Source: Anaerolineae bacterium
GTDB taxonomy: Bacteria > Chloroflexota > Anaerolineae > JAAYZQ01
NCBI GenBank assembly: GCA_016929795.1
Contig: JAFGIA010000445.1
Span: 1 to 48,190, forward strand
Direction: 5' to 3'
Length of the DNA: 48,190 bases
In this document: positions 8,508-48,190 of the stretch, one piece after another
How positions within the stretch are numbered: position 1 is the stretch's first letter
Layout of the letters: every line of letters starts with the position of its first letter
Program-made: the position numbers and the translations under genes
The notes under the pieces: generated by a model
The model's input: only the letters and a program-made list of their open reading frames with translations
What the model was told of the DNA's origin: nothing
The model's database searches: none

Positions 8508-8599
8508 CCGGCGGCAGCGCCCCGGGAACAAGGCGGCGGCCTCGCCTGTATTAAGATCGGGTGGCGCCGCTGGAAGCTGGAAGAGGGTTGATACACTAC

Positions 8600-8636: not shown

Positions 8637-8651
8637 TCGTAGGAGAGGCGA

Positions 8652-31116: not shown

Positions 31117-32304
31117 ATGAAACTGCACGAGTACCAGTCGAAGCGGATTTTTGCCAGGTATGGCGTCCCCATTCCTCAAGGAGACGTGGCAACAACACCC
31201 GATGAGGCGCGCCGCATCGCGGCACGTCTTGGCAAGCGCGTGGTCGTCAAGTCCCAGGTACTGGTGGGCGGCCGCGGCAAGGCCGGCGGCATCCGCCTGG
31301 CCAGCCATCCCGACGAGGTCGAACAAGTCGCCGACGCTATCCTCGGCATGGACATCAAGGGCCTGACCGTGAAAAAGGTCCTCGTCGACGAGGCGGCCGA
31401 CATCGACACCGAGATCTATCTCGGGATCGTCATCGATCGCGCACAACACAAGCCAGTCATGATGGCCTCGGCCGAGGGCGGCGTCGAGATCGAGGAAGTG
31501 GCGCGCGTCACCCCCGAGCGCATCGTCAAGGTCACCGTCGATCCCTTCCTCGGCTTGCAGCCTCACCAGGCGCGTGAGCTTGCCTTTGGCATCGGCCTCA
31601 AAAAAGAGCTGGTGAGTGACTTTGCGCGTGTCGCCTCTGGCCTCTACCAGGCCTTCGTCGAGAACGATGCCTCGCTCGCAGAGATCAATCCCCTCGTCGT
31701 CACCGGCGACGGCAAGCTCCTGGCCGTGGATGGCAAGATGCTCATCGACGACAACGCCCTCTTTCGTCACTTTGATCTGGCCGAGATGCGCGACGCCGAT
31801 GTCGAGACACCGGAGGAGGAAGAAGCCCGCCGCCACGGCCTCAGCTACGTCAAGCTCGACGGCAACATCGGCTGCATGGTCAACGGAGCGGGCCTGGCCA
31901 TGGCCACCATGGACATTGTCAAGCTCTATGGTGGTGAGCCGGCCAACTTTCTCGACATCGGAGGAGGTGCCCAGTCCGACAAGGTGGCGGCCGCCTTGCG
32001 CATCATCCTCTCCGACCCGAATGTCGAGGCCGTCCTCTTTAACATCTTTGGCGGCATCACCCGCTGCGACGAGGTGGCCCGTGGCATCCTGGCAGCACTC
32101 GACCAGGTCCACACCAGCGTGCCCATGGTCGCACGCCTCGTCGGTACCAACGATGAGGAGGGCAGGCGGATCCTGGCGGAGGCAGAAATGATGACGGCCA
32201 GTACATTGGCCGACGCCGCCGAGAAGGCGGTCGCAGCGCAAAAGGCTGTGAGCATGGCGAAAGGTTTGGCGCATAGCCAATCAGTGGCCGCAGGGAGGGT
32301 CTAG
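31117..32304 (+). CDS. sucC: Succinate-CoA ligase (ADP-forming) beta subunit
   Basis: The nucleotide-binding subunit of succinyl-CoA synthetase: succinyl-CoA + ADP (or GDP) + phosphate to succinate + CoA + ATP (or GTP), reversible. The 395-residue length fits. [37 protein letters not shown] (ATP-grasp), [21 protein letters not shown] and [19 protein letters not shown] are standard. ATG 31117 follows an AGGAGG site and matches the family start; the ATG at 31063 would add 18 unrelated residues. sucD starts 1 bp later, then the Kor genes, tying it to 2-oxoglutarate metabolism. Confidence 0.97.
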
Positions 32305-32305
32305 C

Positions 32306-33175
32306 ATGAGCATCCTCGTCGACAAAGATACCCGTCTCCTCATCCAGGGCATCACCGGCCGCGAGGGCGAGTTCCACACACGCCAGATGATCGAGTACGG
32401 CACCCCGGTCGTTGCCGGCGTCACACCGGGCAAGGGTGGGGGCTGGATCGCAGGTGTGCCCGTGTTCGACACTGTGCGTGAGGCGGTCGAGGCCACCGGC
32501 GCGAACGCCTCGATCATCTACGTCCCGGCGCGCTTTGCTGCCGACGCCATCCTCGAAGCCGCCGGTGCCGGGCTCAAGGTGATCGTGTGCATCACTGAGG
32601 GCATCCCCGTCATTGACATGATCAAGGTCTATGCGCACCTCCGCTGCATGGACACCCATCTCATTGGCCCGAACTGCCCTGGACTCATCACCCCGGGCGA
32701 GGCCAAAGTGGGGATCATGCCTGGTCACATCCACACCCCTGGCCCCGTCGGCGTCGTGTCGCGCAGCGGCACCCTGACTTATGAGGTGGTTCACGCCCTC
32801 ACCCAGCGTGGCCTCGGGCAGTCCACCGCCGTGGGTATTGGCGGCGATCCGATCATCGGCACCGATTTCATCGACGTCCTGGAAATGTTCGAGGGCGACT
32901 CACAGACCAGCCAGGTTGTCCTCATCGGCGAGATCGGCGGCACCGACGAGCAGCGCGCCGCCGCCTGGATCGCGCGCCACATGTCCAAGCCCGTCACCGC
33001 CTTCGTCGCCGGCCAGACAGCGCCCCCTGGCAAGCGAATGGGCCATGCAGGAGCCATCATCCAGGGGGGTGAAGGCACGGCCGCCGAAAAGATCGCAGCC
33101 TTTGAGGCCGTTGGCGTGCGCGTTGCCCGCCACCCAGGCGAGATTGCCGAGATGGTTGAGGAGTTGGCGCGGTAA
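32306..33175 (+). CDS. sucD: Succinate-CoA ligase alpha subunit
   Basis: The CoA-binding and phosphohistidine subunit, 289 residues. The phosphorylated His is His247 in [11 protein letters not shown], and the CoA-binding [13 protein letters not shown] and [14 protein letters not shown] are evident. A GGGAGG sequence lies before the ATG. The gene is one base after sucC, and the ferredoxin subunit of the oxoacid oxidoreductase follows after 44 bp. The pair converts the succinyl-CoA made or used by Kor. Confidence 0.97.
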
Positions 33176-33219
33176 GTGTGGCGGAGAAACCCGGTTTCTG
33201 AAACCTGACAGGAGGGACT

Positions 33220-33528
33220 GTGAGTTATTGGAGACAGCCACTGGATCGAGAACGTGTCCAGGTGCCGACAGGCATCGTGCACATTATCGACGAGCGGTGC
33301 AAGGGTTGCGGTTTCTGTGTCGAGTTTTGTCCCCAGCGTGTCCTCGTCATGTCACACCGGATCAATGCCAAAGGCTACCACCCCCCCGAATTGATCGCCG
33401 TGGGGCAATGCGTGAACTGCGGCCTGTGCGCCCTGCTCTGTCCCGACTTTGCCATCTATGTCGACGACGGCGGGATGCACATCCCCGATCAGGTGCGCCC
33501 CATCCACCGTGACGAGGTGCAGAAATGA
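33220..33528 (+). CDS. korD: 2-oxoglutarate:ferredoxin oxidoreductase, delta (ferredoxin) subunit
   Basis: A 102-residue two-cluster ferredoxin. Cys27, 30, 33 and 37 (CKGCGFCVEFCP) and Cys64, 67, 70 and 74 (CVNCGLCALLCP) bind two [4Fe-4S] clusters. Start is GTG 33220, after GGAGGG. The position before korA (overlap ATGA at 33525) identifies it as the delta subunit, passing electrons from the TPP-enzyme core to ferredoxin or to the Hdr proteins downstream. Confidence 0.92.
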   Translation: MSYWRQPLDRERVQVPTGIVHIIDERCKGCGFCVEFCPQRVLVMSHRINAKGYHPPELIAVGQCVNCGLCALLCPDFAIYVDDGGMHIPDQVRPIHRDEVQK

Positions 33529-34814
33529 CCGATCCGCAACCATCTAATCCACGCGGCCTGCTGACGGGCGAGCACTTTATGCTGGGCGACCACGCGGCTA
33601 CCGAGGGCGCCATTCTCGCCGGCTGCCGCTTCTTTGCCGGCTACCCCATCACACCGGCTACCGAGATCGCCGAGCGTGCCTCGGTGCGCATGCCCCAGGT
33701 GGGCGGCGTCTACATCCAGATGGAAGATGAGCTGGCTTCGATGAATGCCATCCTGGGTGCATCGTGGGCCGGCATCAAGTCGATGACGGCGACCAGCGGC
33801 CCCGGCTTTTCATTAATGATGGAGAACCTGGGTCTCGGCATCATGCTCGAGACCCCCTGCGTCCTGATCAACGTCCAGCGCGGCGGGCCCTCCACCGGCC
33901 TGCCCACCCTCGTCGGCCAGCAGGACATGATGCAGGCACGCTGGGGCTCGCATGGCGACTATGAGATCATTGCCCTTAGCCCCACCTCGCCGCAAGAACT
34001 GTTCGACCTGACGATCCGCGCCTTTAACCTGTCAGAAAAGTACCGGACGCCCGTCCTCGTCATGACCGATGCCGAAGTGGGCCACATGACCGAAAAGGTC
34101 GTCATCCCGGCACCCGACCAGGTCGAGATCATCAACCGGTGGCAGGTGCGGCGTGGCGACGTCGAGCCGGATCATTTTCGCATCTTTCGTGACAGCCAGG
34201 CAGGAAACGGACATGGTCATGAAATCATTGCTGGCTATGTGTCGCCCATGGTCGCCGCTGGTGAGGGGTACCGCATCCATGTCACCGGCCTGACCCATGA
34301 CGAGCGTGGCTATCCTGTGATGAACGCGCAGGCGAACGAGTGGAACGTCACACGCCTGGTCGACAAGGTGCGTATGCACCGTGCCGACATCATCCAGGTG
34401 GAAGAACAGCACCTGGATGATGCGGAGGTCGTCGTCGTATCGTATGGCATTTCGGCACGCACATCGCTGTGGCCCATCGAGCAAGCGCGCCAAGAGGGCA
34501 TCCGCGTTGGCTACCTGAGGCTGATCACCGTTTGGCCCTTCCCCGATGAGCGTATCCGCGAGGTGGCCAGAGACATTCGCGCCTTTGTCGTGCCCGAGAT
34601 CAATATGGGCCAAATCGTGCGCGAGGTCGAGCGCGCTGCCGCCGGACAGGCACACGTGTTGGGCGTCCACCGCGCAGGTGGCGACATTCTGGAATCGGAC
34701 TATGTTCTTGACGTGATCCGCCTGGCAGCAGGCCGTGAGCCGTCGATGACACCTGCCCAGCACAGGCAACGGCTTCGCGGCGCTACGGGGGCGGCGGAAG
34801 ATACCGGGGAGTGA
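33525..34814 (+). CDS. korA: 2-oxoglutarate:ferredoxin oxidoreductase, alpha subunit
   Basis: A 429-residue subunit of the 2-oxoacid:ferredoxin oxidoreductase superfamily. The region GDHAATEGAILAGCRFFAGYPITPATEIAE is the pyrimidine-binding domain, and MTATSGPGFSLMMENLGLGIMLETPCVLINVQRGGPSTGLPT is typical of KorA. No gamma domain is attached at the N-terminus; here gamma is fused to beta instead. The 2-oxoglutarate assignment comes from family resemblance and from sucCD; a different 2-oxo acid cannot be excluded. Confidence 0.92.
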   Translation: MTDPQPSNPRGLLTGEHFMLGDHAATEGAILAGCRFFAGYPITPATEIAERASVRMPQVGGVYIQMEDELASMNAILGASWAGIKSMTATSGPGFSLMMENLGLGIMLETPCVLINVQRGGPSTGLPTLVGQQDMMQARWGSHGDYEIIALSPTSPQELFDLTIRAFNLSEKYRTPVLVMTDAEVGHMTEKVVIPAPDQVEIINRWQVRRGDVEPDHFRIFRDSQAGNGHGHEIIAGYVSPMVAAGEGYRIHVTGLTHDERGYPVMNAQANEWNVTRLVDKVRMHRADIIQVEEQHLDDAEVVVVSYGISARTSLWPIEQARQEGIRVGYLRLITVWPFPDERIREVARDIRAFVVPEINMGQIVREVERAAAGQAHVLGVHRAGGDILESDYVLDVIRLAAGREPSMTPAQHRQRLRGATGAAEDTGE

Positions 34815-34821
34815 GAAAGAC

Positions 34822-36396
34822 ATGACCGACACCGAAATGCGACGCAGCGAGCGTCTACAGCACATGGGCTACGAGCCGCCCGACGAGAGCGACTGGGTCA
34901 CCGGGTTGCACCCGATGGATGAGCTCCTCCGCGGCGAGCGGCTGCCCCACATCTGGTGCCAGGGGTGTGGCCTGGGCACCGCGCTCACCACCTTTATCAG
35001 CGCGCTGCAGTGGCTCGAAAAGAACCGTGGTTGGGACCTCGACAAGGTCGCCGTCGTCTCGGGCATCGGCTGCACGGGGCGCATCGCCGGCTACGTCCGG
35101 CTCGACTCTTTCCATACCACCCATGGCCGCGCCATCCCCTTTGCCACAGGGCTCAAGCTGGCCAACCCCGATCTCAAAGTCATCATCCTGTCAGGTGACG
35201 GCGACATCGCCGGCATCGGTGGCAACCACTTTATCCACGCCGCGCGGCGCAACCTCGACATCACCCTCGTGTGCGTCAACAACTTTAACTATGGCATGAC
35301 CGGCGGGCAGGTCGGCCCCACGACCCCCCACGAGGCCCGGGCGGTCACCAGCCAGTACGGCAACTTTGAGTATCCCTTCAATCTGCCCTACCTGGCCGCA
35401 GCCAGCGGCGCCTCGTTCGTTGCCCGTTGGACCGTGCTGCACGCGCGCCGCCTCGAGTGGACGCTGCGTGAGGCGATGGAACATCCCGGCTTTTCCTTCG
35501 TCGAGGTGATCGCCCCCTGCTCCACAGCCTACGCCCGCTGGAACCGCGAAGGCACGGGCCTCGACCCGGAAAAACTGCGCAGGCGTGGCCTCGAAGTACT
35601 TAAATACTACCAGCAAGTGGGCCGTATCGCCCACGGCACCCATCCCAAAGACGCCGGCATTGAAGTAGACGACAAGGGACAGTTGACCTCCATCGTAGAG
35701 GGCAAATTCCTCGACGATCCCAAACCGGACCTGCAGCAGGCCCTCGATGCCCTGGCTGCCAGGGGAGAAAAGTGGTGGCAGGAGGAGAAAAAAGCGCTTG
35801 ACGAGCGCGTCGTGACACCCAGGCGCACCGACCATGTGCCACGCACCGAAGTACAGCTGGGCGGCTTTGGGGGGCAGGGCATCATCAGCGCCGGTACGAT
35901 CATTGGCCAGGCCGCGGCGCTTTACGATGGGCTCGAAGCCTGCTTCACCCAGAGTTATGGCCCCGAGGCGCGTGGTGGCTCTGCCGGCTCCCAGGTCGTC
36001 ATCGCCAGCGCCCCGATCCACCACCCACACGTCATCGAGCCGGCGAGTGCCATCATCATGTCACAGGGGGCGTATGCCAAGTATGCACCCCAGTTGGCCG
36101 CGGGCGGCATACTCCTCATCGACGATGGCCTGGTGCAGCTCGGGGACGATCATCGCACCGACATCACAACTTACGGCCTGCCGGCCACCGAGATCGCCGA
36201 AAAACTCGGCAACAACCGCGCTGCCAACACGGTCATGCTCGGCTTTTGGACCGCCATTGTCGGCGCCGTCAGCGAGCCGGCCATGCGTGAATCGATCCGC
36301 GAATCCGTCCCGCCCAGAACCGTCGACGTCAACATGAAAGCGTTCGCTGCCGGATACCAGGCCGGACTGAAGGAGGTTGGAGTTGAGCGAACCTAG
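34822..36396 (+). CDS. korB: 2-oxoglutarate:ferredoxin oxidoreductase, fused beta-gamma subunit
   Basis: A 524-residue fusion. Residues about 1-320 are the TPP-binding beta subunit: CQGCGLGTALTTFI supplies a conserved CxxC, and GDGDIAGIGGNHFIHAARRN (from residue 125) and VCVNNFNYGMTGGQ bind Mg-TPP. Residues about 345-524 are the gamma subunit: EVQLGGFGGQGIISAGTIIG, SYGPEARGGSAGSQVVIA and NTVMLGFWTAI. Between them is a Lys/Glu-rich linker (WWQEEKKALDERV). Gamma is usually a separate gene or fused to alpha. The HdrA-GltD gene's TTG start lies within its end (36383), so translation is likely coupled. Confidence 0.93.
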   Translation: MTDTEMRRSERLQHMGYEPPDESDWVTGLHPMDELLRGERLPHIWCQGCGLGTALTTFISALQWLEKNRGWDLDKVAVVSGIGCTGRIAGYVRLDSFHTTHGRAIPFATGLKLANPDLKVIILSGDGDIAGIGGNHFIHAARRNLDITLVCVNNFNYGMTGGQVGPTTPHEARAVTSQYGNFEYPFNLPYLAAASGASFVARWTVLHARRLEWTLREAMEHPGFSFVEVIAPCSTAYARWNREGTGLDPEKLRRRGLEVLKYYQQVGRIAHGTHPKDAGIEVDDKGQLTSIVEGKFLDDPKPDLQQALDALAARGEKWWQEEKKALDERVVTPRRTDHVPRTEVQLGGFGGQGIISAGTIIGQAAALYDGLEACFTQSYGPEARGGSAGSQVVIASAPIHHPHVIEPASAIIMSQGAYAKYAPQLAAGGILLIDDGLVQLGDDHRTDITTYGLPATEIAEKLGNNRAANTVMLGFWTAIVGAVSEPAMRESIRESVPPRTVDVNMKAFAAGYQAGLKEVGVERT

Positions 36397-39300: not shown

Positions 39301-39904
39301 GGGGGCTTTGTCGGCGCAGCGCATCCAGGCACTGCGGCTGCGCAGCGTGCCGGGAGAGATCCGGCAAACGCCGAGCCACTTTACAGTCACCAGTGGTGGT
39401 TCCCACGACGCTTCTCGCCTGTGGAAAGGATCAGCCCTCGTCCTCGCGCCACGCAACCAAGAGGAACGAGCCGTGATAAACGAGTCATTTGGCACGCCAG
39501 GGCGCCAGCCACGCACCCAATCGACATGGGGCTGTGCCGACACGCATCGCCCTGGCATCTTTGTCTGTGAGCCAACCGTCGATCCGATGATCGCGGGCAT
39601 GGCGGCGGCTGCGCGCGTCGCGGCCTGGCTCGGTCAGGAGCAGTCCTGGCCCGGCGCGTTGGCTGCCAGGGTCGACCCTGACCGCTGTCGCGGCTGTGGC
39701 GACTGTGAGCAAGTGTGCGAGTTTGGCGCCATCCAATTGCAGCCCGCAGCCCACGGCAGCGAGACAGGCGTCGTGGCCTGGATCGACCCGGCCATCTGTT
39801 GTGGCGGGGGCATCTGCGCCGCTCACTGCCCTGCCGGCGCCATCATCACCGGCCACCCGACCAGCGCGCAGATTGAAGCCATGCTCGAAGCCATCCTTGC
39901 ATAA
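36383..39904 (+). CDS. HdrA-GltD-HdrA fusion flavoprotein
   Basis: A 1173-residue Fe-S flavoprotein. (1) Residues 1-150: partial HdrA-like FAD motif (GGTIAGIQAALDLANSG) and ferredoxin ligands Cys136, 139, 142, 146. (2) About 165-690: a GltD (glutamate synthase small subunit) module with CANTCPGGIHVQGYIALIAQ, AVIGAGPAGMAVANSL (near 275) and AIIGGGNTAIDVARSL (near 427), the usual NAD(P)H and FAD sites. (3) About 807-1173: HdrA N-domain (IGVFVCQCNG), a vestigial Rossmann (VLIVGNGTAATICQGAL) and two C-terminal ferredoxin motifs from Cys1102. TTG 36383 is six bases after AGGAGG; TTG 36377 abuts it. Residues near 712-737 come from a palindromic repeat. I infer it links NAD(P) to the Hdr/Kor chain. 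Confidence 0.85.
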   Translation: MSEPSGSRGGALVVGGTIAGIQAALDLANSGVQVHLVEPSPFLGNESTSANSVVHHARGILEPALQLPTPAAGEPAPTGDTIPLHRHLLNTRLLEIAKNPHVTLWTNARINRADGEAGRFRIELRQHPRYVDLNKCTACKDCIEVCPVTVPGTDHKAIYLVEDGQPGCAVIEKVGKAPCANTCPGGIHVQGYIALIAQGRFREALALIRQAIPFPGICGRICTHPCEINCRRAEVDEAVSIRLLKRFVADWELHHPEEMADDNLPPPPPPDAPQVAVIGAGPAGMAVANSLVRRGYRVTVFEALPVVGGMMMLGIPSYRLPREVIQREIGRIERNGVEIRLNTRIGPDGEYTIDDLFEMGYRAMFIGVGAHQAHNLRIPGESHGGEPLKGVVSGIELLKAINLSHQTDDPRWQMKVLSYLLGGVATRVAIIGGGNTAIDVARSLKRLGVEDVRILYRRTRAEMPALPEEIEEAEHEGVPIEFLVSPVRVLGDERGRVVALECVRMKLGEPDHSGRRRPVPIAGSEFTLELDMIVPAIGQSPDLTFLGDSHSFAITREGTFNIDRVSYMTNRPGVFAAGDAITQPVSVIDAIGSAKQAAAGIDAYLQGVEIEDLPVSAREVPIARRQLLPEDLVPKPRHRSPSISMARRLNSHAEVELGYDAETAIAEAQRCLQCGPCSECLACEAVCEPKAIIHDGVERFEQIEVGAIVWASPTLPSPRGGTPVSTPSRGWQEGREISPVVDPSILHVNLGAPVSSTANGQPGIYHVRPDDPLAGSAAAARVMMELFTEREPSEAPVRPIGTAGVARIGVFVCQCNGQISDIVDTASVEAEATGRKGVVYTQVLAQSCSPEAADAIYQAVTDHNLNRVVLAACSCCSVDQVCYSCTYQRVRCKDNLLGRHFDRGNPLFEFVNIREQAAWAHEDDPPAATAAASAMIAAAVAKTRLSVVRPRASLPLEKTVLIVGNGTAATICQGALSAQRIQALRLRSVPGEIRQTPSHFTVTSGGSHDASRLWKGSALVLAPRNQEERAVINESFGTPGRQPRTQSTWGCADTHRPGIFVCEPTVDPMIAGMAAAARVAAWLGQEQSWPGALAARVDPDRCRGCGDCEQVCEFGAIQLQPAAHGSETGVVAWIDPAICCGGGICAAHCPAGAIITGHPTSAQIEAMLEAILA
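38519..38590. repeat. REP-like palindrome inserted in frame in the fusion gene
   Basis: CCCCTCC (38527-38533) and GGAGGGG (38578-38584) flank a perfect 20-bp palindrome (38556-38575, centred on CTCGAG). The encoded peptide is SPTLPSPRGGTPVSTPSRG and onward, low in complexity and unlike HdrA or GltD sequence on either side (VGAIVWAS before, ILHVNLG after). The composition matches the intergenic palindromes at 39909-39958 and 40377-40412. Confidence 0.75.
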
Positions 39905-39908
39905 CCCT

Positions 39909-39958
39909 TCCCTCTCCCCCTGCCAGCGAAGGTCGCTTCGCTGGCAGGGGGAGAGGGA
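39909..39958. repeat. 22-bp stem palindrome between the fusion gene and mvhD-like gene
   Basis: Arms 39909-39930 and 39937-39958 are exact 22-bp reverse complements with a 6-nt loop (GGTCGC). No U-tract follows, so it may instead be a REP-type element or an mRNA stabilising structure within the operon. Sequence after it reads GGGGTGAGGGAGG, supplying the next ribosome site. Confidence 0.85.
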
Positions 39959-39994
39959 GCTGGCCAACGGCCGGTTGGGGTGAGGGAGGAAAAC

Positions 39995-40426
39995 GTGGAG
40001 CGAGAGCCGAAATTCGTCATTTTTACGTGCAACTGGAACGCGCACGAGAGCCTGCAAGAAGCGGGCAAGCAGCGCCTGCATTATCCTGCCGGCGCCCGAC
40101 CGCTGAAAGTAGACTGCCTGGGCCAGGTCAGCGCCAGCGTCATCCTGAAAGCGTTCGAAAAAGGCGCCGATGGCGTCATGCTCGTCGGCTGCTCGCCCCA
40201 AGAGTGCCACTACGAATTCGGCAGCCGTCGCGCCGCCGAGCTCTTCGCCGAGATACGAAAACTGTCCAAGCTCCTCGGCTTCCGCGAGGAGCAGCTCGCG
40301 TTCCACCAGGTCCATGCCGGTGACAGCGAGGCCCTGATTGAGCAGGTCCGCTCCTTCGCCGCCCGGCTCACTGCCATCTCCCCTCCCTTGAGGGGGGGGG
40401 CAAGGGGAGGTGAAACCGATGAATAA
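39995..40426 (+). CDS. MvhD-like electron transfer protein, divergent copy
   Basis: A 143-residue MvhD/FlpD-family protein, expected to carry a [2Fe-2S] cluster and to pass electrons to HdrA. GTG 39995 follows a GGAGG site; GTG 39980 is less likely. Family sequence: IFTCNWNAHES, VDCLGQVSASVILKAFEKGADGVMLVGCSPQECHYEFGSRRAAELF. The usual CNWC is CNWN here, so one potential ligand is lost. The last residues ISPPLRGGARGGETDE come from a palindromic repeat (40377-40412), not from family sequence. The stop overlaps the next start by 8 bp. Confidence 0.85.
   Translation: MEREPKFVIFTCNWNAHESLQEAGKQRLHYPAGARPLKVDCLGQVSASVILKAFEKGADGVMLVGCSPQECHYEFGSRRAAELFAEIRKLSKLLGFREEQLAFHQVHAGDSEALIEQVRSFAARLTAISPPLRGGARGGETDE
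40377..40412. repeat. REP-like element at the end of the first mvhD-like gene
   Basis: CCCCTCCCTTG (40380-40390), a run of nine or more G, and CAAGGGGAGG (40401-40410) make an imperfect hairpin. It encodes the tail ISPPLRGGARGG and also furnishes the GGGGAGG ribosome site for ATG 40419. Confidence 0.7.
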
Positions 40427-41735
40427 TGTCCTCGTCATCGGCGCCGGCATTGCCGGCATCCAGGCCTCCCTCGACCTCGCCGAGCAGGGCTTGCGTGTGC
40501 ACCTGGTGGAACGCTTGCCGAGCATCGGCGGCCGCATGGCTCAGCTTGACAAGACCTTTCCCACCAACGACTGCTCGACCTGCATCCTGGCGCCCAAGAT
40601 GGTTGACTGCGCGCGCCATCCCAACATCGTGCTGCACACCTACAGCCAGGTAGAAGCCGTTGCTGGCGAGGCAGGCCACTTTGACGTGAGCGTGCTCAAG
40701 CGCGCGCGTTACGTCGACGAGACCAAGTGCACCGGTTGCGGCGAGTGCGCGAGCAAATGCCCACGCAAGGTACCTGATGCGTTCAACCTCGGCCTGAACC
40801 AGCGGCGCGCGATCTATCTCTACTTCCCACAAGCCGTGCCCATGGTTATGACCATCGATCCCGAGCACTGCACCTACCTGCAGCGCGGCAAGTGTGGATT
40901 GTGCGCCCAGGTGTGTGAAGCGGGCGCCATCGACTTTGAGCAGCAAGACCGCGTGATCGATCTCCAGGTGGATGCCATCGTCGTCGCCACCGGCTTTGAT
41001 TTCTTTGATCCGGCGCCGCTGACTCAGTATGGTTACCAGCGTTACCCTAACGTGATCACCGCGCTCGAGTACGAACGCCTGATCAGCGCCTCCGGGCCAA
41101 CGGGGGGGCACCTGCTTCGCCCCTCCGATGGACAACCGGCGAAAAAGATCGGTTTCGTGCAGTGTACCGGCTCGCGCCACGTGCACCACAACCGTTACTG
41201 CTCAACCGTGTGCTGCGTGCACGCCATCAAAGAAGCCACACTCGCCTGGGAGCACGACCACGACGCCGATTCGTACGTCTTTTACACCGATCTCCGCGGC
41301 TCGGGTAAGGGCTTCCGCGAGTACATGGACCGGGCCAGCCGTGCCTATGGCGTCACCTACGTGCACGGCCGCGTGGCCCAGATTTTCGAGATGGGACCTG
41401 GCGCCGCCAGCGCCGGCGAGGCACACAGCCCGGTCATCCGCTACGAAGACGCCGCCACGGGGCGGGTGGCAGAGATGGTGTTCGACTTGGCAGTGCTCGC
41501 CACCAGCCTGGTGCCTGCGCGCGATGCACCGGCGCTCGCTGGCATACTCGGGATCGAGCTGGACGAGTACGGTTTTGTCAAAACCGAACCCTTCAGCCCG
41601 GCCGACACGACCCGTCCTGGCATCGTTGCCTGTGGCTGCTGCCTTGGGCCGGCGGACATCCCCCAGTCGGTTGCGCAGGCCAGTGCGGCGGCTGCACGCG
41701 CCGCCGAGATTGCCTGGCACAAAGAGAAGGGATAG
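40419..41735 (+). CDS. hdrA: HdrA-like FAD/Fe-S oxidoreductase, short form
   Basis: A 438-residue heterodisulfide reductase subunit A-like protein lacking the extra N-terminal domain of the long paralogues. It has the FAD motif NVLVIGAGIAGIQASLDLAEQG, IGGRMAQLDKTFPTNDCSTC (Cys52, Cys55), ferredoxin ligands Cys104, 107, 110, 114 and Cys151, 159, 162, 166. CTGSRHVHHNRYCSTVCCVHAIKEA is typical HdrA. C-terminally PGIVACGCCLGPADIPQSV. ATG 40419 follows GGGGAGG at eight bases. It probably forms a complex with the long HdrA encoded 7 bp downstream, as two-FAD-protein assemblies do in QmoAB-type systems. Confidence 0.92.
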   Translation: MNNVLVIGAGIAGIQASLDLAEQGLRVHLVERLPSIGGRMAQLDKTFPTNDCSTCILAPKMVDCARHPNIVLHTYSQVEAVAGEAGHFDVSVLKRARYVDETKCTGCGECASKCPRKVPDAFNLGLNQRRAIYLYFPQAVPMVMTIDPEHCTYLQRGKCGLCAQVCEAGAIDFEQQDRVIDLQVDAIVVATGFDFFDPAPLTQYGYQRYPNVITALEYERLISASGPTGGHLLRPSDGQPAKKIGFVQCTGSRHVHHNRYCSTVCCVHAIKEATLAWEHDHDADSYVFYTDLRGSGKGFREYMDRASRAYGVTYVHGRVAQIFEMGPGAASAGEAHSPVIRYEDAATGRVAEMVFDLAVLATSLVPARDAPALAGILGIELDEYGFVKTEPFSPADTTRPGIVACGCCLGPADIPQSVAQASAAAARAAEIAWHKEKG

Positions 41736-41742
41736 GCGCGTC

Positions 41743-43617
41743 ATGGATGGATTTGAAAACCGCCGGCCACAGCGCGTCGCGCAACGCCGGCCGTGGTCCA
41801 TCACACAGCAAGAAAACGGAAAGGGGGTGGGCGACACTCCGCGCATCGGGGTGTTCATCTGCCACTGTGGGCACAACATCGCTGGTTACCTCGACGTGCC
41901 GGCGCTCGTCGCATCGGCCCGCAACCTGCCGCACGTCGTCGTCACACAGGACAGCCTCTTCATCTGCTCTGACGCCGGGCTGAACCAGATCCGCGCCGCC
42001 ATTGCCCAATACGGCTTGAACCGCGTCGTCGTCGCCTCCTGTACGCCCCGCACGCACGAGCCTCTTTTTCAAGCAACGTGTGACGAAGCGGGGCTAAACC
42101 GCTACCTGTTCGAGTTCGTCAACATCCGCGACCAGTGCTCTTGGGTGCATATGGAGGATCGCGAGCGTGCGACGCATAAAGCATGCGACCTCATTCGCAT
42201 GGGTGTCGCCAGGGCCGCCCTACTCCAGCCCCTTGTCGAGACCGAGCTAGCGGTCCAGCCCGCAGCAGCCGTCATCGGCGGCGGCATGGCAGGCATGACC
42301 GCTGCCGTCAGCCTGGCGCGTCGCGGCTTTGCCGTCACCCTCATCGAGCGTGAGGCAGCACTGGGCGGCAGCGTGCGCCACCTCGACACCCTCTATCCCA
42401 ACCGGGCAAGCGCGCGCAAGCTGGTGGAAGCCCAAGTCGCCGAGGTATGCGCGGAGCCGCAGATCGAAATCCTCACCTCGGCAGAAGTGACAGCCGTCCG
42501 TGGCTCTGTCGGTCACTTTGAGCTGCAGGTCGAGAGCCGTCAGTACAGGATGAAACTGCCCGTGCAGGCCGGCGTGGTAGTGGTAGCGACAGGCGCCGAG
42601 GAGTGGAAGCCAGCAGACAAGTACGGCTATGGACACGATCCCACCGTCATCACGCAGCAGGAGCTGGAAGAGCGCTTGTCAGCGGGCGATCTGCCGCCTG
42701 ACTTGCGCTCAGTCGTAACGATCCAATGTGTCGGCGCGCGCGACGCGCAACACCCATACTGCGGCCGCACCTGCTGCCTGGTTGCCATGAAAAACGCCAT
42801 GATCCTCAAAGAGCGGAATCCAGGCTGCCAGGTGCACGTTCTATATCGTGACATCGAGGCCTATGGCACCCATTTCGAAGACTATTACGCACAGGCGCGA
42901 GAGATGGGCGTCGTCTTTACACGCTATTCACCAGACCACAAGCCAGAGATTCATGCTGGCCGGGGCGCGGCCGGCGACAGGCGCGTGCTCGTCTACGATG
43001 AGTTGCTCGGCGCCACACTGGCCATCCCCTACGACCTGCTCGTGTTGTCGACCCCGCTGGTGCCTCGGCCGGGAGCACGCGAGCTGGCCCAGATGCTCAA
43101 GGTCCCCGTCGACGAGCACGGCTTTTTCCTCGAAGCCCACGTCAAGCTCCGTCCCCTCGATTTTGCCACCGACGGCATCTACCTGTGTGGTAGCGCTCAC
43201 TGGCCCGCGCACCTCGACGAGGCCATCGGCCAGGCACTGGGGGCAGCCGCCCGCGCCGCGACCGTGCTGTCGAAAGAGCAGATTCGCTCATCCGGCGTCG
43301 TATCCCGTGTAGAAGAGTCGCTGTGCCGCGGGTGCGAGCGGTGCGTGGCAGTGTGCGAATATAGTGCCATCGACCTGGTCGACGTCACAAAGAGCGTTGA
43401 ATTTCTCCACCAACCCATGGCCCGCGGGCAAGAGACAGTGCACGTCAAGGTGGCGCGAGTGAACCCCATGTTGTGCAAGGGCTGTGGCGCGTGCGCCGTC
43501 GTGTGTCCGACGAGTGCCATGGTCGCGTCACACTTTACCGGCGACCAGGTGGCAGCCATGATCCGGGCAGCGTTCGAGGTGCCTGCAGCGATGGGAGAAG
43601 ATCATGGAACCCTTTGA
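41743..43617 (+). CDS. hdrA: HdrA-like FAD/Fe-S oxidoreductase, long form
   Basis: A 624-residue HdrA homologue. Its N-terminal domain (IGVFICHCGHNIAGYLDV, then CTPRTHEPLFQATCDEAGLN) is the same type as in the fusion and in the gene at 47601. The FAD-binding core has AVIGGGMAGMTAAVSLARRG near 176, HVLYRDIEAYGTHFEDYY follows, and the C-terminus has ferredoxins from Cys528 (CRGCERCVAVCEYSAI) and Cys578 (CKGCGACAVVCPTSAM). ATG 41743 is the homology start although its ribosome site is weak. In methanogens HdrA bifurcates electrons; here the acceptor is not known. Its end overlaps the second MvhD gene. Confidence 0.93.
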   Translation: MDGFENRRPQRVAQRRPWSITQQENGKGVGDTPRIGVFICHCGHNIAGYLDVPALVASARNLPHVVVTQDSLFICSDAGLNQIRAAIAQYGLNRVVVASCTPRTHEPLFQATCDEAGLNRYLFEFVNIRDQCSWVHMEDRERATHKACDLIRMGVARAALLQPLVETELAVQPAAAVIGGGMAGMTAAVSLARRGFAVTLIEREAALGGSVRHLDTLYPNRASARKLVEAQVAEVCAEPQIEILTSAEVTAVRGSVGHFELQVESRQYRMKLPVQAGVVVVATGAEEWKPADKYGYGHDPTVITQQELEERLSAGDLPPDLRSVVTIQCVGARDAQHPYCGRTCCLVAMKNAMILKERNPGCQVHVLYRDIEAYGTHFEDYYAQAREMGVVFTRYSPDHKPEIHAGRGAAGDRRVLVYDELLGATLAIPYDLLVLSTPLVPRPGARELAQMLKVPVDEHGFFLEAHVKLRPLDFATDGIYLCGSAHWPAHLDEAIGQALGAAARAATVLSKEQIRSSGVVSRVEESLCRGCERCVAVCEYSAIDLVDVTKSVEFLHQPMARGQETVHVKVARVNPMLCKGCGACAVVCPTSAMVASHFTGDQVAAMIRAAFEVPAAMGEDHGTL

Positions 43618-44029
43618 GCCTACAATTCTCGCCTTTGCCTGCAATTGGTGCTCGTACGCAGGAGCCGACCTTGCAGGCGTGAGCCGCATCCAATACCCAC
43701 CTACCACGCGCGTCATCCGCGTCATGTGCTCCGGGCGGGTCAGTCCGGCGTTCATCCTGGCGGCATTGCGCCAGGGAGCCGACGGCGTCCTGGTGACAGG
43801 CTGCCATCCGGGCGACTGCCACTACCTGTCGGGCAACGAAAAAGCGGTTCAAAACGTGCAGGTGGCTCACTCCTTGATCCAGCTTCTCGGCATCGAGCCG
43901 GCGCGGCTGCGCCTTGAGTGGATCTCGGCAGCCGAAGGGAACCGGTTCGCGCAGGTAGTCACCGAGTTCACAGATCACTTGCGCGAACTGGGCGCAAACC
44001 CACTACGCAATGGGCAAATGAGCAGATGA
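43604..44029 (+). CDS. mvhD: MvhD-like electron transfer protein, canonical copy
   Basis: A 141-residue MvhD/FlpD homologue with intact cysteines: FACNWCSYAGADLAG, VMCSGRVSPAFIL and VTGCHPGDCHYLSGN. It should bind a [2Fe-2S] cluster and feed HdrA. The ATG lies inside the end of the HdrA gene, indicating coupling. The last six codons come from an 8-bp tandem repeat (44012-44035). This one is complete, unlike the copy at 39995, so the two may connect different partners. Confidence 0.93.
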   Translation: MEPFEPTILAFACNWCSYAGADLAGVSRIQYPPTTRVIRVMCSGRVSPAFILAALRQGADGVLVTGCHPGDCHYLSGNEKAVQNVQVAHSLIQLLGIEPARLRLEWISAAEGNRFAQVVTEFTDHLRELGANPLRNGQMSR

Positions 44030-44035
44030 GCAAAT
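44012..44035. repeat. Three 8-bp tandem repeats at the mvhD stop
   Basis: GGGCAAAT, GAGCAGAT and GAGCAAAT stand head to tail and include the TGA stop at 44027-44029. They encode the terminal NGQMSR of MvhD. The 54 bp between this stop and the next start hold nothing else I can identify. Confidence 0.65.
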
Positions 44036-44083
44036 CGGCACCTTGCCCTTGGCAGCTTGCATCTTGAAAGGAAGCCTTGTTTG

Positions 44084-45214
44084 ATGAACTACCAACCGAT
44101 CATCGAGAGGACACGCGCTTATCTCTGCCTCGACTGCGGCAAGTGCACGGGGAGTTGTCCGCTGGCCCGCGTCGACCTAGACTATTCCCCGCGCCGCATC
44201 GTCGAGCGCGTCATCTCGGGCGAGGCTGAGGCAGTGATGGCCGATCCCCAGCTATGGAGCTGCATGACGTGTGGCATGTGCAGCGCGCGCTGTCCATCGA
44301 ACGTCGACTTTGCACGCTTTATCATCCAGATGCGTGCCGAAGCATTCAGGCTCGGCGAGCGCGGGATCTATGCGCACAATGGCATCCTGCAAGAGATCAT
44401 GCGTATCCAGACGCTGGACGTACATCAGGATCGCACCGGTTGGCTAACAGACGACATGCAGGTATCTCCAGAGAGCGACACCCTCTACTTTGTCGGCTGC
44501 CTGCCCTTCTTTGACGTCATCTTTGATGACCTTGACGTGGAAGCGACCGAGATCGCGCGCAGCGCTGTGCGCTTGCTGAACCGGGCTGGCATCGTGCCCA
44601 ATGTCAGCAACGACGAGCGATGCTGTGGTGCCGACCTGCTGCTTGCCGGAGATGCCGACAGCTTCCGGCGGCTGGCAGAGCTTAACGTGAAGACAATCTC
44701 ACAGAGTGGTGCGAAACGGGTCGTCTTTACGTGTGCCGAGTGCTACAACGCGTTCAAGAACGATTACCCTGAATACGTCGGTGCCCTGCCCTTTGAGGTC
44801 ACCCACCTCACCGAGCTGCTCGCCGGGTGCCTCGACACCGGCGGTCTGGCCTTTGAACCACTCCCCGGCTTGGTCACTTACCACGACCCGTGCCGCATGG
44901 CGCGCTACCTCAAAGTGCACGAGCCGCCTCGCCAACTCATCAACAGTGTGCCACAGGCCCAACTTGTAGAAATGGAGGACAACCGCGAGCGATCAATGTG
45001 CTGCGGCTCCACAGCGTGGGTGAACTGCAGTGGCTGCTCCAAGCTGATCCAGCGCGAAAAACTTGCCCAGGCGCGCGACACCGGCTCGCGCCTGATGCTC
45101 ACCACCTGCCCCAAGTGCCAGATCCACCTGCGCTGTGCATCGCGCGACCTGGATGCGGAAGAGAAGGTGCGGGTCGAGGACGTGACAAGCTGGCTGGCAC
45201 GGGCGATCCTGTGA
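44084..45214 (+). CDS. HdrC-HdrB fusion, CCG-domain Fe-S protein (HdrD-like)
   Basis: A 376-residue protein. The N-terminal HdrC part has two [4Fe-4S] motifs: Cys15, 18, 21, 25 (CLDCGKCTGSCP) and a second (CMTCGMCSARCP). The C-terminal HdrB part has two CCG domains: GCLPFFDVIFDD ... NDERCCGADLLLAGD and HDPCRMARYLKVHEPPRQL ... RSMCCGSTAWVNCSGC. In methanogens the CCG clusters bind the heterodisulfide. A bacterium of this kind lacks CoM/CoB, so the true disulfide or other acceptor is unknown; GlpC-, DsrK- and lactate-utilisation-type relatives exist. The ATG at 44084 matches the family and follows AAGGAAG. Confidence 0.9.
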   Translation: MNYQPIIERTRAYLCLDCGKCTGSCPLARVDLDYSPRRIVERVISGEAEAVMADPQLWSCMTCGMCSARCPSNVDFARFIIQMRAEAFRLGERGIYAHNGILQEIMRIQTLDVHQDRTGWLTDDMQVSPESDTLYFVGCLPFFDVIFDDLDVEATEIARSAVRLLNRAGIVPNVSNDERCCGADLLLAGDADSFRRLAELNVKTISQSGAKRVVFTCAECYNAFKNDYPEYVGALPFEVTHLTELLAGCLDTGGLAFEPLPGLVTYHDPCRMARYLKVHEPPRQLINSVPQAQLVEMEDNRERSMCCGSTAWVNCSGCSKLIQREKLAQARDTGSRLMLTTCPKCQIHLRCASRDLDAEEKVRVEDVTSWLARAIL

Positions 45215-45248
45215 CGATCGAATCGACCTGCCAGGTGGAGCAAAAAGG

Positions 45249-47033
45249 ATGATGCCAAAAGCAGAGCCGATGCAGTGTAGGGAACCAAGCGTGGCAGACC
45301 TGGAAACAGCCAGCACCACGACCGACACTGCCTTTCTGCAGAGCACGGTCGCGCAAGCCGCACTCCTCCTCCGCGCTTCAGGCTGCGCTTTCTATCTGTG
45401 CACGCCCGGAGTGGAGGAGATGACCCTCGCCGCCAGTCAGGGTATGGAGTCCGTGCCGTGCGACCAACAGATCCTGCACCGTGCATGCCTGGCAGCCGAG
45501 AGTGTTTCAACCCTGTTTCCCGGTGGCCCAGCCGTGCTCGCCATCCCCTGCTTCTTCCATGACTTGGTGATGGGCGTGCTTCTGATCGCCGATAAGAATC
45601 CGGAGCGTGCCTTTGACCAGCACGACATCTCGACAATCCAACCCCTGGCGGACCTGGCGGCCGCGATGCTCCATCAGGCCAGACGGCTGCAGCGGATGAC
45701 CGCCCAGTTCCGCGCGCTGCATACCATCGACATCGCCCTCACCTCGAGCCTGCAGCTCGACCGCGTGTTGAGACTGATTCTGGAAAAAGCCGTCGACCTT
45801 GTCCGCGCCGAGCACGGCTCGCTACGGCTCTACAACCCGGACACGGGCGAGCTGGTGCTCAAAGCCTACTTAGGCGAGGGGTGGACACCGGAGGTACGCG
45901 CCTACGTTTTTAGCCGTGGGACAGGGCTCTGTGGATGGGTGGCGGAAGAGCACAAGCCCTACCTCTGTCTTGACACGCACAGCGATCCACGCTACGTCAT
46001 GCTGTTTGACAAGATGCGATCCGCCGTGGCCGTCCCACTCCTGACCCATGGGCGAAACGATCTGTCAGACGATGAGCTGCTCGGCGTACTCCTCCTGGAG
46101 AGCGCGCGCCCGGGCGCGTTTGGGCATCAGGATGTGGAGCTGCTCTCGGCAATGGCGCAGGAGGCCGTACTCGCGATCCAGAACGCCACCCAACATGAAA
46201 AGCTGCAGGTCATGCACCAGGCACTGCAAGACGAGCAGGAACGGCGCGTCGCTGCGGAAAAGTGGACAGTGATGGGTCAGGCGGCGACAGCCCTGGCACA
46301 CAGGATCAACAACCTCGTGGGCATCGTCCCCGCCAGCGCCTCCGAGATCCGGCGCACCCTGTCGGCACTCACCATCCCGGCCGCCGATCGTGAATGGATC
46401 AAAGACAACCTGGGGCGCATTGAGCGCAACAGTGCGTTTGTGCTGCGCTTGGCGAACGCCCTCTTTCGCCCATTCCAGGATGCGGGGCCCAAGGGGCAAT
46501 TTGACGTGAATCAAGTCCTGAACGAAGCACTGCAAGCGGCAAACCTGGCGCCTGATGTGCAGGTGATCTGCGATTATGCCCCGGTTCTACCACGCGTGGA
46601 AAGTAGCTCGCTCCTCGTCGACATCTTTCTCGAGCTCATCACCAACGCGTGCAAGGCGATGGAGCACCAGCCACGCAAATGGCTCGAACTGCAGACGCGC
46701 GTGGAGCCGGGAGAATTCGAAACCGGCGGCGGCCCTGCCGGTTCTGCGAGCGGTGAAAGCGCCGCCGGAAACGACTATCCCATTGCTGGCGAGAGTGGAC
46801 AGTGGGCCGTCGTTGAGGTACGTGATACGGGAACAGGCATTCCCCCAGAGCGGCTGCCACACCTGTGGGAGATGTTTCAAGTAAGCTCGGATGGGCTCGG
46901 CTTTGGCTTGTGGTGGGTGCGCACCTTCATCGAGCGCCAGGGCGGCACGATTGCGTGCCACAGCCGGCCAGGTGAGGGCACCACATTCACAATTCGTCTG
47001 CCGGCTGGTAACACCAACCAGCCATCTCCGTAG
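45249..47033 (+). CDS. Soluble sensor histidine kinase with two GAF domains
   Basis: A 594-residue kinase without membrane helices. Residues about 20-140 and 155-320 are GAF domains (ASGCAFYLCTPGVEEMTL; DRVLRLILEKAVDLVRAEHGSLRLYNPDTGEL), then a short coiled linker and a phosphoacceptor His351 in ALAHRINNLVG. The ATPase domain has an N box (ELITNACKAM) near 462-471 and G box DTGTGIPPERLPHLWEMF, with GFGLWWVRTFIERQGG. A Gly/Ala/Ser-rich stretch (GGGPAGSASGESAAGND) interrupts it. It follows HdrCB by 34 bp and is followed by a receiver, so it likely senses a cytosolic signal, such as redox state or a ligand, tied to the Hdr system. Confidence 0.9.
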   Translation: MMPKAEPMQCREPSVADLETASTTTDTAFLQSTVAQAALLLRASGCAFYLCTPGVEEMTLAASQGMESVPCDQQILHRACLAAESVSTLFPGGPAVLAIPCFFHDLVMGVLLIADKNPERAFDQHDISTIQPLADLAAAMLHQARRLQRMTAQFRALHTIDIALTSSLQLDRVLRLILEKAVDLVRAEHGSLRLYNPDTGELVLKAYLGEGWTPEVRAYVFSRGTGLCGWVAEEHKPYLCLDTHSDPRYVMLFDKMRSAVAVPLLTHGRNDLSDDELLGVLLLESARPGAFGHQDVELLSAMAQEAVLAIQNATQHEKLQVMHQALQDEQERRVAAEKWTVMGQAATALAHRINNLVGIVPASASEIRRTLSALTIPAADREWIKDNLGRIERNSAFVLRLANALFRPFQDAGPKGQFDVNQVLNEALQAANLAPDVQVICDYAPVLPRVESSSLLVDIFLELITNACKAMEHQPRKWLELQTRVEPGEFETGGGPAGSASGESAAGNDYPIAGESGQWAVVEVRDTGTGIPPERLPHLWEMFQVSSDGLGFGLWWVRTFIERQGGTIACHSRPGEGTTFTIRLPAGNTNQPSP

Positions 47034-47109
47034 ATTCGAAATCGCAGCCAAGGCCAAACGCGCGCCATGGCGTGCTACAAACGCTGAAGGAGAAATTTGA
47101 GAAAAAAAG

Positions 47110-47580
47110 ATGCGAGGCAAAATACTCATCGTAGAAGACTTTGGCGATTGGCGTGACCTGTTGGTCGGGCTGTTGCAGCGTGAAGGGCACACAGTCAAAG
47201 CCGTTTCGACAGCCCAGGAAGCACGCGCCTATCTAAAGGAAGTGCAGCACCTCGACCTGACCATCCTCGACATTCGCCTGGTAGAGACTGATGACACAAA
47301 TGAAGATGGCATGCAACTGCTGGCCGAGATCGACGATCACCAACCCTTTACCAGGGTGATCATGATCACGGGCCATGGAACAATGGAGCTGCAGCGACGT
47401 GCCTTTCGCCAGTTCCACGCCTTTGACTTTTTTCGCAAAGAAGAGTTCGACTCGGAAGAGTTCCGGCGCGCCGTGCGCGAAGCGGTGGAGGAAGCCGCAC
47501 GCCAGCGCAAGGCTGCCCAAGACCACGACTATATGCGCAGCCATCGCTATGAAACGTGGCAGCGTGAACAAAACAAATAA
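47110..47580 (+). CDS. Stand-alone response regulator receiver
   Basis: A 156-residue CheY-like protein. Asp54 in LTILDIRLVE is the phosphorylation site; Glu9-Asp10 bind Mg; Thr87 (MITGHG) and Lys110 (FFRKEEF) complete the receiver. After residue 125 there is only a short charged tail (AARQRKAAQDHDYMRSH), so it has no DNA-binding or enzyme domain. It may act by protein contact, like CheY or Spo0F, or on the Hdr proteins beside it. The upstream ribosome site is uncertain (AGGAG is 17 bases before the ATG). Confidence 0.92.
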   Translation: MRGKILIVEDFGDWRDLLVGLLQREGHTVKAVSTAQEARAYLKEVQHLDLTILDIRLVETDDTNEDGMQLLAEIDDHQPFTRVIMITGHGTMELQRRAFRQFHAFDFFRKEEFDSEEFRRAVREAVEEAARQRKAAQDHDYMRSHRYETWQREQNK

Positions 47581-47600
47581 CGGTAGGAGAGGAGGACACC

Positions 47601-48190
47601 TTGCCTGCAGATAATAGCCGTGAACGACACGGCATGCGCATCGGCGTGTTCGTGTGCGACTGTGGATCGAACATCGCCGGGGCGGTAGACACAGAAGCGG
47701 TGCGCGAATATGCTGCCACCCTGCCCGACGTCGTCGCCGCGATTCGCAACAAGTACACGTGCGCCGATCCAGGCCAGCAAGAGATCCAGAAAGCGATCTA
47801 TGAGTACAACCTGAACCGGGTTGTCGTCGCTTCCTGCTCCCCGGCCTCCTATGAGGCCGTCTTTCGCCAGTGCATCGTAGGCGCGGGGCTCAACCCCTAC
47901 CTGCTCGAAATGGCAAACCTGCGCGAGCACTGCTCCTGGGTCACCCCCGGCGACCGCGCCGCGGCTACGCGCAAAGCGAAGGATCTTGTCAAGGTCGCGG
48001 TGGCCCGCGCGCACTGGCTCTACCCTCAGGATGAGGAGCAGATCCCTGTCACCAACGCCGCGCTGGTCATCGGCGGCGGCATCGCGGGCATGCAGGCAGC
48101 CCTCGACTTGGCCGATGCGGGACACCCCGTCTACCTGGTCGAGAGAAAAGCGTCGATCGGCGGCATCATGGCCCAACTCGACAAGGTGTA
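47601..48190 (+). CDS. hdrA: HdrA-like protein, third copy, 3' end beyond window
   Basis: A partial gene: TTG 47601 follows a GGAGAGGAGG site by six bases and reads 196 codons to the window edge. The start is MPADNSRERHGMRIGVFVCDCGSNIAGAVD, then SCSPASYEAVFRQCIVGAGLNPYLLEMANLREHCSWV and the FAD motif ALVIGGGIAGMQAALDLADAG with IGGIMAQLDKV. It belongs to the long HdrA type, like the gene at 41743. Its position 20 bp after the receiver shows that the signalling pair lies inside the Hdr cluster, not at its end. Confidence 0.9.
   Translation, partial: MPADNSRERHGMRIGVFVCDCGSNIAGAVDTEAVREYAATLPDVVAAIRNKYTCADPGQQEIQKAIYEYNLNRVVVASCSPASYEAVFRQCIVGAGLNPYLLEMANLREHCSWVTPGDRAAATRKAKDLVKVAVARAHWLYPQDEEQIPVTNAALVIGGGIAGMQAALDLADAGHPVYLVERKASIGGIMAQLDKV

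Follow-up and report, generated by a model that had tools for sequence, protein, structure and literature searches.

In the HdrABC-MvhD-MetVF complex of Moorella thermoacetica and of the marine Chloroflexi DscP3, the genes for HdrA, HdrBC and MvhD are clustered with those for one enzyme of central metabolism, and HdrC and HdrB are fused in the Chloroflexi version, according to passages of PMC5736913. In the same paper, Kor is a source of low-potential electrons in the korAB-bzdV system of deep-sea Chloroflexi. In Desulfobacterium autotrophicum an HdrA/glutamate-synthase fusion (HdrL) is followed by mvhD, with selenocysteine (Sec) in some HdrA and HdrL proteins (passages of PMC2702500). Here we analyse a stretch of 48,190 nucleotides from an Anaerolineae bacterium (the window), on which genes for succinyl-CoA synthetase (sucC, sucD) and for a 2-oxoacid:ferredoxin oxidoreductase (kor) run into genes encoding an HdrA/GltD chimera, two MvhD proteins, three further HdrA proteins and an HdrC-HdrB fusion. 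The neighbourhood of kor and the chimera is conserved among relatives, and we favour, with a probability of about 0.58, the reading that a dedicated bifurcating or confurcating module of the HdrA type joins the ferredoxin electrons of Kor to NADP(H) and to a partner of HdrCB.

Conservation of the kor-hdr neighbourhood

Relatives of the cluster were collected with an alignment of the chimera, consisting of the window and 17 relatives picked from the best 120 of 5388 matches. Searching the GTDB genome set returned 33 loci, of which two (L032 and L033, matching over 40 residues only) were set aside, leaving 31 (L-numbers denote loci of relatives and G-numbers genomes). Twenty-six of these hold at least 1.3 kb 5' of the chimera and are evaluable for kor, and in 25 of them kor lies no more than 0.6 kb 5' of the chimera (24 by systematic count and L028 by a separate look), the largest gap being 578 bases in L001. 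Similarly, 27 loci extend 2.5 kb or more beyond the 3' end of the chimera, and hdrCB was found there in 26 of them, the miss being L003, where the contig ends. Two further Chloroflexota genomes (L035 and L036) also carry kor beside a chimera of the window type. The synteny by which the first-pass annotation had proposed to check the cluster is thus present in relatives. The recurrence of the order in other genomes speaks against chance, the Suc-Kor-Hdr cluster is confirmed as real, and the view that its parts belong together is well supported. Judged by title, most hosts (22 of 31) are Chloroflexota, many of them Anaerolineae, and the others include Deltaproteobacteria, Desulfobacteraceae or Desulfobacterales and one Nitrospinae, whose locus (L030) begins inside the chimera and stands outside the kor count.

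A different account of this linkage is that the Hdr proteins are a general complex for NADP(H), ferredoxin and disulfide, at the disposal of the entire ferredoxin pool. Its genes would adjoin kor because both sets of proteins deal with low-potential electrons, and Kor and Hdr would not be direct partners. KorD is ferredoxin-like and might trade electrons with a common pool, and classic HdrA/GltD proteins often occur in the absence of kor: any HdrA/GltD match was present in 33 of 400 Chloroflexota genomes at 1e-150 and in 85 of 395 genomes from the phylum of L006 at 1e-200, the latter mostly proteins of about 1500 residues matching positions 5-670 only. In contrast, the chimera of the window type, detected in three of the 400 genomes (G003, G060 and G193, the last of these over positions 1-916 of 1093), adjoined korC and korB each time. 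Among 55 control loci, all five of the window type (L034-L036, L081 and L091, with L034, L081 and L091 being repeats of L003, L006 and L024) had kor, whereas none of the 50 classic HdrA/GltD loci had it in their flanks, which reached at most 1.5 kb and were cut on one side by more than 1.2 kb in four loci (L082, L090, L092 and L100). Since control loci were the best-scoring matches, with two candidates scored per genome, the window type was undercounted, as in G020 and G025, which hold a kor-linked chimera (L020 and L025) though the control scan listed only the classic protein there. Given that a chimera of the window type stands without kor only once in 26 evaluable loci, and that its linkage to kor survived an exchange of partners, mere co-regulation appears to us an improbable explanation.

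This exchange is seen in trees of KorA and of the chimera, each with 23 rows (the window and 22 of the 31 loci; nine loci without a full KorA and/or with a cut chimera were left out). In the KorA tree the loci with fused korB and korC (window, L001-L004, L006, L011 and L029) form a clade at 100/100, whereas the tree of the chimera joins L011 and L029 to L019, L021 and L023, also at 100/100. Forcing either group into the other tree was rejected (approximately unbiased test on quick trees, p = 3.3e-5 for KorA and 0.004 for the chimera), for sets chosen after the trees had been inspected and with L029 and L021 on long branches of the chimera tree. At face value, this result would mean that one partner was replaced while the kor-chimera neighbourhood persisted, and because the linkage outlived the replacement a working link between Kor and the chimera is favoured.

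Within the window, family models and coordinates confirmed every gene named in the first-pass annotation, with its order, its + strand and the short gaps or overlaps. The genes follow one another as listed in Table 1 from sucC to hdrA3, spaced from a 20-base overlap up to a 76-base gap, and include a GAF-domain kinase and a receiver-only response regulator, absent from that annotation, between hdrCB and the last hdrA. The kinase also lies 3' of hdrCB in L001, L002 and L004, and the regulator is also present in L001 and L002. As to the single promoter that had been proposed 5' of sucC, the site is present: the scan of the window gave seven such sites where 2.8 were expected by chance, so that the site proves little, and two weaker promoter-like sites lie on the + strand at 47097 and 47686. 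One promoter for the whole cluster is plausible.

Table 1. Features of the suc-kor-hdr cluster in the window
Feature	Positions	Strand	Evidence
Promoter-like site 5' of sucC	30921..30949	+	10/12 consensus matches, TG before second hexamer; consensus match only
sucC, succinyl-CoA synthetase beta	31117..32304	+	NF001913 543.7 bits, cut-off 370; alternative open reading frame start 31063
sucD, succinyl-CoA synthetase alpha	32306..33175	+	NF004230 452.1, cut-off 336
korD, delta ferredoxin subunit	33220..33528	+	Best NCBIfam match OGOR_delta, below its cut-off; Fer4 domains
korA, alpha subunit	33525..34814	+	NF006412 546.3, cut-off 411; solved relatives 1yd7_A, 8ys5_A, 6n2n_A
korB-korC (beta-gamma) fusion	34822..36396	+	TPP_enzyme_C at 91-229, POR at 350-513; best solved relative 8ys5_C
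HdrA/GltD chimera, 1175 residues	36377..39904	+	Pfam, NCBIfam and PDB matches; alignment
mvhD1	39980..40426	+	PF02662
Short HdrA, core without end domains	40410..41735	+	Glu222 and Lys274 align with E356 and K409 of 5odc_A
Long HdrA without inserted ferredoxin	~41776..43617, start uncertain	+	Keeps Glu298 and Lys339
mvhD2	43604..44029	+	PF02662 185.8 bits
hdrC-hdrB fusion	44057..45214	+	PF02754, Fer4; CCG motifs, both complete, at 148-229 and 279-354
GAF-domain sensor histidine kinase	45249..47033	+	PF01590, PF02518
Receiver-only response regulator	47110..47580	+	PF00072
hdrA3, N-terminal 196 residues	47601..48190 (window end)	+	90% identity with L001 across 182 residues

Neither Rfam families nor tRNA genes were found when the window was scanned for them. 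Next to the cluster lie two open reading frames of 485 and 438 residues without a Pfam match (27756-29213 on the - strand and 29567-30883 on the + strand), and farther 5' there are genes for the glycine cleavage P-protein (5584-6960), a member of the dihydroxy-acid dehydratase family (10375-12045, - strand) and a glycogen debranching enzyme (13589-15604). Just 3' of the cluster of L015 (17174-19606), genes resemble by eye parts of methylmalonyl-CoA epimerase and mutase.

The Kor enzyme and the neighbouring electron-transfer proteins

All parts of a 2-oxoglutarate:ferredoxin oxidoreductase (Kor or OGOR) are present, namely alpha, beta, gamma and delta with thiamine pyrophosphate and Fe-S domains, and fusions of korB and korC occur in Archaea (passages of PMC11237513). 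Use of another 2-oxoacid might be suspected, as the KorB part and KorD do not reach the curated cut-offs of those NCBIfam models that are specific to 2-oxoglutarate, the model matched by KorA (NF006412) covers 2-oxoacids in general, and the solved structure closest to KorA, 1yd7, belongs to a 2-keto acid enzyme. Against this, 8ys5, annotated as a 2-oxoglutarate enzyme, is the best solved relative of the beta part (8ys5_C) and the second best of alpha (8ys5_A), and sucC and sucD adjoin kor in six of the 26 evaluable loci, with sucD alone in L007; a different substrate would therefore be quite surprising.

The chimera combines pieces of HdrA in an unusual order. Residues ~13-152 match HdrA 145-262, the first part of the flavin adenine dinucleotide (FAD) domain with the inserted ferredoxin; residues 177-610 are GltD; residues ~809-971 match the N-terminal domain of HdrA; and the C-terminal end is a 2[4Fe-4S] ferredoxin. 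Unlike type III HdrA and HdrL, the protein is not a complete HdrA with a GltD insert, since the second half of the FAD domain is missing and the N-terminal domain has moved. Two residues, E356 and K409, are named as the bifurcation residues of HdrA in passages of PMC12054007, and the stretch that holds them is absent from the chimera, as is the CC....K motif, the HdrA match being confined to the part up to residue ~262, the N-terminal domain and the C-terminal ferredoxin. Because this stretch is missing, bifurcation at an HdrA flavin of the chimera is unlikely, and the chimera was ruled out as being itself the bifurcating HdrA. Architecture and the kor control likewise ruled out that these loci are plain HdrL. 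L013 carries two tandem chimeras 3' of kor (3282-9902).

Both a sequence search and a model match place the GltD domain closest to GltD-like chains, those of NfnABC, StnABC and NfnI. Its motifs GGGNTA and YRR, at positions 434 and 458, vary little or not at all across the 18 aligned rows, and as they fit the GXGXXA rule for NADP(H) quoted in passages of PMC12054007, where the archaeal type III proteins have GXGXXG, this part of the chimera looks to be of the NADP(H) type. The NAD(P)H binding ascribed to GltD-type subunits in the first-pass annotation would thereby be narrowed to NADP(H). The gene mvhD1 follows the chimera, and MvhD is fused to it in 7 of the 31 loci.

The pair of bifurcation residues, Glu and Lys, is kept in both complete HdrA proteins of the window, short and long, and by alignment in the Sec-HdrA of L001. 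The short and long proteins (40410-43617) are complementary pieces, a core and a long form without the inserted ferredoxin, resembling a split type II HdrA; such a pair was found in only one of the 31 loci besides the window (L003, 9813-12976). The L003 match to the last hdrA is this long HdrA rather than the Sec type and was left out of the Sec count. In the hdrC-hdrB fusion both hallmarks of HdrBC are present, the [4Fe-4S] and the CCG motifs, two of each. Inspection by eye of the open reading frames in parts of 11 related loci, no family search having been made, revealed neither an obvious hydrogenase nor an obvious formate dehydrogenase, and for this reason the mid-potential partner is likely to be NAD(P)H.

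The last hdrA of the cluster is cut by the end of the window at LDKV and two bases, eight codons short of the Sec site of its relatives. In all 21 loci where this gene was found, an in-frame TGA occurs in the context DCSI-TGA-ILGPKM or ECSI-TGA-ILGPKM, and 3' of it there is a hairpin resembling GGATGTC-GGTC-GACATCC, with all seven pairs kept in 20 of the 21 loci; L027 breaks one pair, and L005 and L021 swap one T-A pair for C-G. The folding energy of this putative selenocysteine insertion sequence, in four sequences, was not distinguishable from that of shuffles (z -1.47 to 0.18), and the best fold of L020 differs, so that the Sec reading is based on conservation of the site and on the changes within hairpin pairs rather than on energy. 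SelB scored above cut-off in 25 of the 31 host genomes. In 9sfi_A the residue aligned with the Sec site is an X, which we take to be selenocysteine. The last HdrA of the relatives is very probably a selenoprotein, and by analogy with them the same would hold for hdrA3 of the window.

Proposed electron path and its direction

Gene content, order, conservation, motifs and the in-frame TGA of the relatives can be read directly from the genomes and form the basis of the explanation that we favour. In it, Kor would interconvert 2-oxoglutarate plus CoA with succinyl-CoA plus CO2, exchanging ferredoxin-level electrons via KorD, and SucCD would tie succinyl-CoA to succinate and ATP. The chimera would be the port for NADP(H), with hydride passing to the GltD flavin and electrons then to iron-sulfur clusters and MvhD. 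From MvhD they would reach the true HdrA proteins, namely the short, the long and the Sec-type one. There the FAD, aided by the Glu/Lys pair, would split or merge electrons between ferredoxin on the Kor side and HdrCB, with a higher-potential acceptor that is probably a disulfide. Complex formation, electron path, acceptor and direction are thus parts of a scheme that we infer from sequence. The earlier proposal of one electron-transfer unit is thus partly supported.

The potential of 2-oxoglutarate oxidation is near -0.5 V, that of NADPH near -0.32 V. To run Kor in reverse, NADPH would therefore have to be assisted, for instance by bifurcation, whereas the forward reaction needs a sink only. 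In the reductive mode, NADPH and the acceptor would together provide low-potential electrons for the reductive carboxylation of succinyl-CoA. The presence of several bifurcation-competent HdrA proteins is easier to explain in this direction, which is an argument and not a result, and for the sucCD-linked Anaerolineae we lean slightly towards it. A more specific proposal is a bifurcating 2-oxoglutarate synthase, in which NADPH would enter via the chimera, the Sec-HdrA would split electrons to the HdrCB acceptor and to Kor, and CO2 would be fixed onto succinyl-CoA in a reductive tricarboxylic acid (TCA) cycle of anaerobic Anaerolineae in which citrate is cleaved by the products of an operon for citryl-CoA synthetase-like proteins and citryl-CoA lyase; we hold this to be doubtful.

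Searches for metabolic genes covered the 31 host genomes of the relatives, incomplete metagenome-assembled genomes in which absences are weak. Citryl-CoA lyase (NF004869) scored over its cut-off in 9 of 31 hosts compared with 9 of 400 genomes of the phylum, one of the latter being host G003. In six of the nine hosts SucC-like and SucD-like genes adjoin the lyase (L064 1466-5119; L066 1344-4954; L067 1856-5185; L068 920-5091; L071 5232-8495, reverse; L073 2262-5657) and in L065, L070 and L072 they do not, while of the eight background loci over the cut-off six were inspected and one (L076) had such neighbours. The neighbour proteins scanned (SucD-like in L064, SucC-like in L066 and L068) fall below the cut-offs for succinyl-CoA synthetase, and among solved structures the L068 lyase is closest to the citryl-CoA lyase 6hxp. 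Fisher tests on the genomes disregard their kinship and have descriptive value only. Such sets may represent a two-step citrate cleavage in Anaerolineae and their kin, and the lyase in these hosts hints at reductive synthesis of 2-oxoglutarate in Anaerolineae, where a reductive TCA cycle is possible in the lyase-bearing members. Also compatible would be a partial reductive branch that supplies 2-oxoglutarate for biosynthesis, a route described in some methanogens and anaerobic methanotrophic archaea (passages of PMC9012536).

A number of observations weigh against the favoured reading. L014 (9968-13207) encodes an HdrA/GltD/MvhD fusion and hdrCB with no kor within 10 kb, the sole evaluable exception, and the suc genes, with the counts given above, are not part of the core. 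The AlphaFold model of the chimera, built with 18 sequences, is poor (mean predicted local distance difference test, pLDDT, 60.5; predicted template modelling score, pTM, 0.39), and only its GltD match was used, which the sequence search gives as well. DsrC is a known bacterial partner of HdrB-like proteins; it was present in 8 of the 31 host genomes and not found in 23, which makes it unlikely as the general partner of HdrCB. A title on DsrC with HdrB-like proteins is cited in passages of PMC10553843. The enrichment of citryl-CoA lyase is weaker at the looser threshold of E <= 1e-40 (9 of 31 hosts and 45 of 400 phylum genomes), the lyase had no match in the Deltaproteobacteria and Dehalococcoidales hosts, and the ATP-citrate-lyase domain, considered as a mark of the reductive cycle, was present in 1 of 31 hosts only, so that a role in a reductive TCA cycle cannot be general.

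Some of these points bear on the opposite direction, in which Kor would be the catabolic 2-oxoglutarate oxidase of the TCA cycle or of glutamate fermentation, the Hdr proteins a ferredoxin:NADP+ oxidoreductase (confurcating or downhill) that recycles ferredoxin, and SucCD a source of ATP. The E1 component of 2-oxoglutarate dehydrogenase was not found in 15 of the 16 host genomes searched for it (the sole match being G002), so Kor is the likely route, and oxidation by Kor requires a ferredoxin sink. Full-length citrate synthase in six hosts (G002, G003, G004, G006, G011 and G030) is compatible with the oxidative direction as well; the closest host is among them, with an isocitrate-dehydrogenase-like gene (by eye) beside the synthase gene. 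It is slightly favoured, too, by the looser lyase count and by the precedent of korAB and bzdV as a ferredoxin-regenerating system in deep-sea Chloroflexi (passages of PMC5736913). On the other hand, a downhill transfer from ferredoxin to NADP+ requires no bifurcating HdrA, no Sec-HdrA and no HdrCB, and citryl-CoA lyase is commoner among hosts than in the phylum draw; we consider this alternative unlikely, though one to be taken seriously.

Comparison with known systems

Of the redox steps in the TCA cycle, Kor catalyses the hardest, and how anaerobes run it either way, and how they supply or drain the ferredoxin, has seldom been tested. The cluster suggests a dedicated route by which the ordinary reductant of the cell could drive the 2-oxoglutarate reaction, or by which electrons could be gained from it. 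If true, a conserved HdrA module dedicated to Kor in uncultured Chloroflexota and Deltaproteobacteria would give a concrete answer, a testable site of energy coupling and a further client of HdrA-type bifurcation, and a chimera adjoining korC could serve as a marker for finding such organisms in metagenomes. Low-potential enzymes wired to other redox proteins are familiar: the Bam complex of class II benzoyl-CoA reductase is joined to HdrA/MvhD-like parts and differs from Kor in substrate, and the 2-oxoglutarate:NADP+ oxidoreductase of Azoarcus is joined to an FAD/NADP subunit and has no Hdr parts. To our knowledge, and among the open-licence papers searched, there is no described case of bifurcation coupled directly to a carboxylase of the reductive TCA cycle.

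The statement of the first-pass annotation that no system with this exact set had been described stands within the open-licence papers searched, with single parts already known. No title or abstract start among the best 6 to 20 matches of each search concerned a Kor-Hdr complex, subscription literature lying outside this scope, and Kor with HdrA is not described in the passages considered of PMC2702500, PMC5109826, PMC5736913, PMC12054007, PMC6085437, PMC10553843, PMC11650866, PMC5296606, PMC9802188, PMC5459899, PMC12142623, PMC9012536 and PMC11237513. HdrL and type III HdrA, Sec-HdrA, HdrABC-MvhD-MetVF and Kor as a source of ferredoxin electrons are each known, and the present set was found in none of the papers searched.

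Each of these systems differs from the present cluster in a definite way. The client of HdrABC-MvhD-MetVF is methylene-tetrahydrofolate reductase instead of Kor, and a GltD chimera is not mentioned in the passages of PMC5736913, where korAB-bzdV is coupled to benzoyl-CoA reductase with no Hdr or MvhD named. HdrL of D. autotrophicum lies near dsrABC or formate dehydrogenase genes, the word 'oxoglutarate' being absent from the main text of PMC2702500, and the classic HdrA/GltD proteins of the L006 phylum, mostly of about 1500 residues, differ from the window chimera with its 1175. As to NfnI, NfnABC and StnABC, the bifurcating transhydrogenases that are the closest kin of the GltD domain, no NfnS or NuoF-like partner is encoded among the cluster genes of the window. 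Finally, type III HdrA of methane-metabolising archaea resembles the chimera in that its GltD insertion is close to the ferredoxin insert of HdrA, but it carries the NAD-type motif GXGXXG and otherwise HdrA-like domains (passages of PMC12054007), whereas the chimera has GGGNTA and the rest of its HdrA is lost or rearranged.

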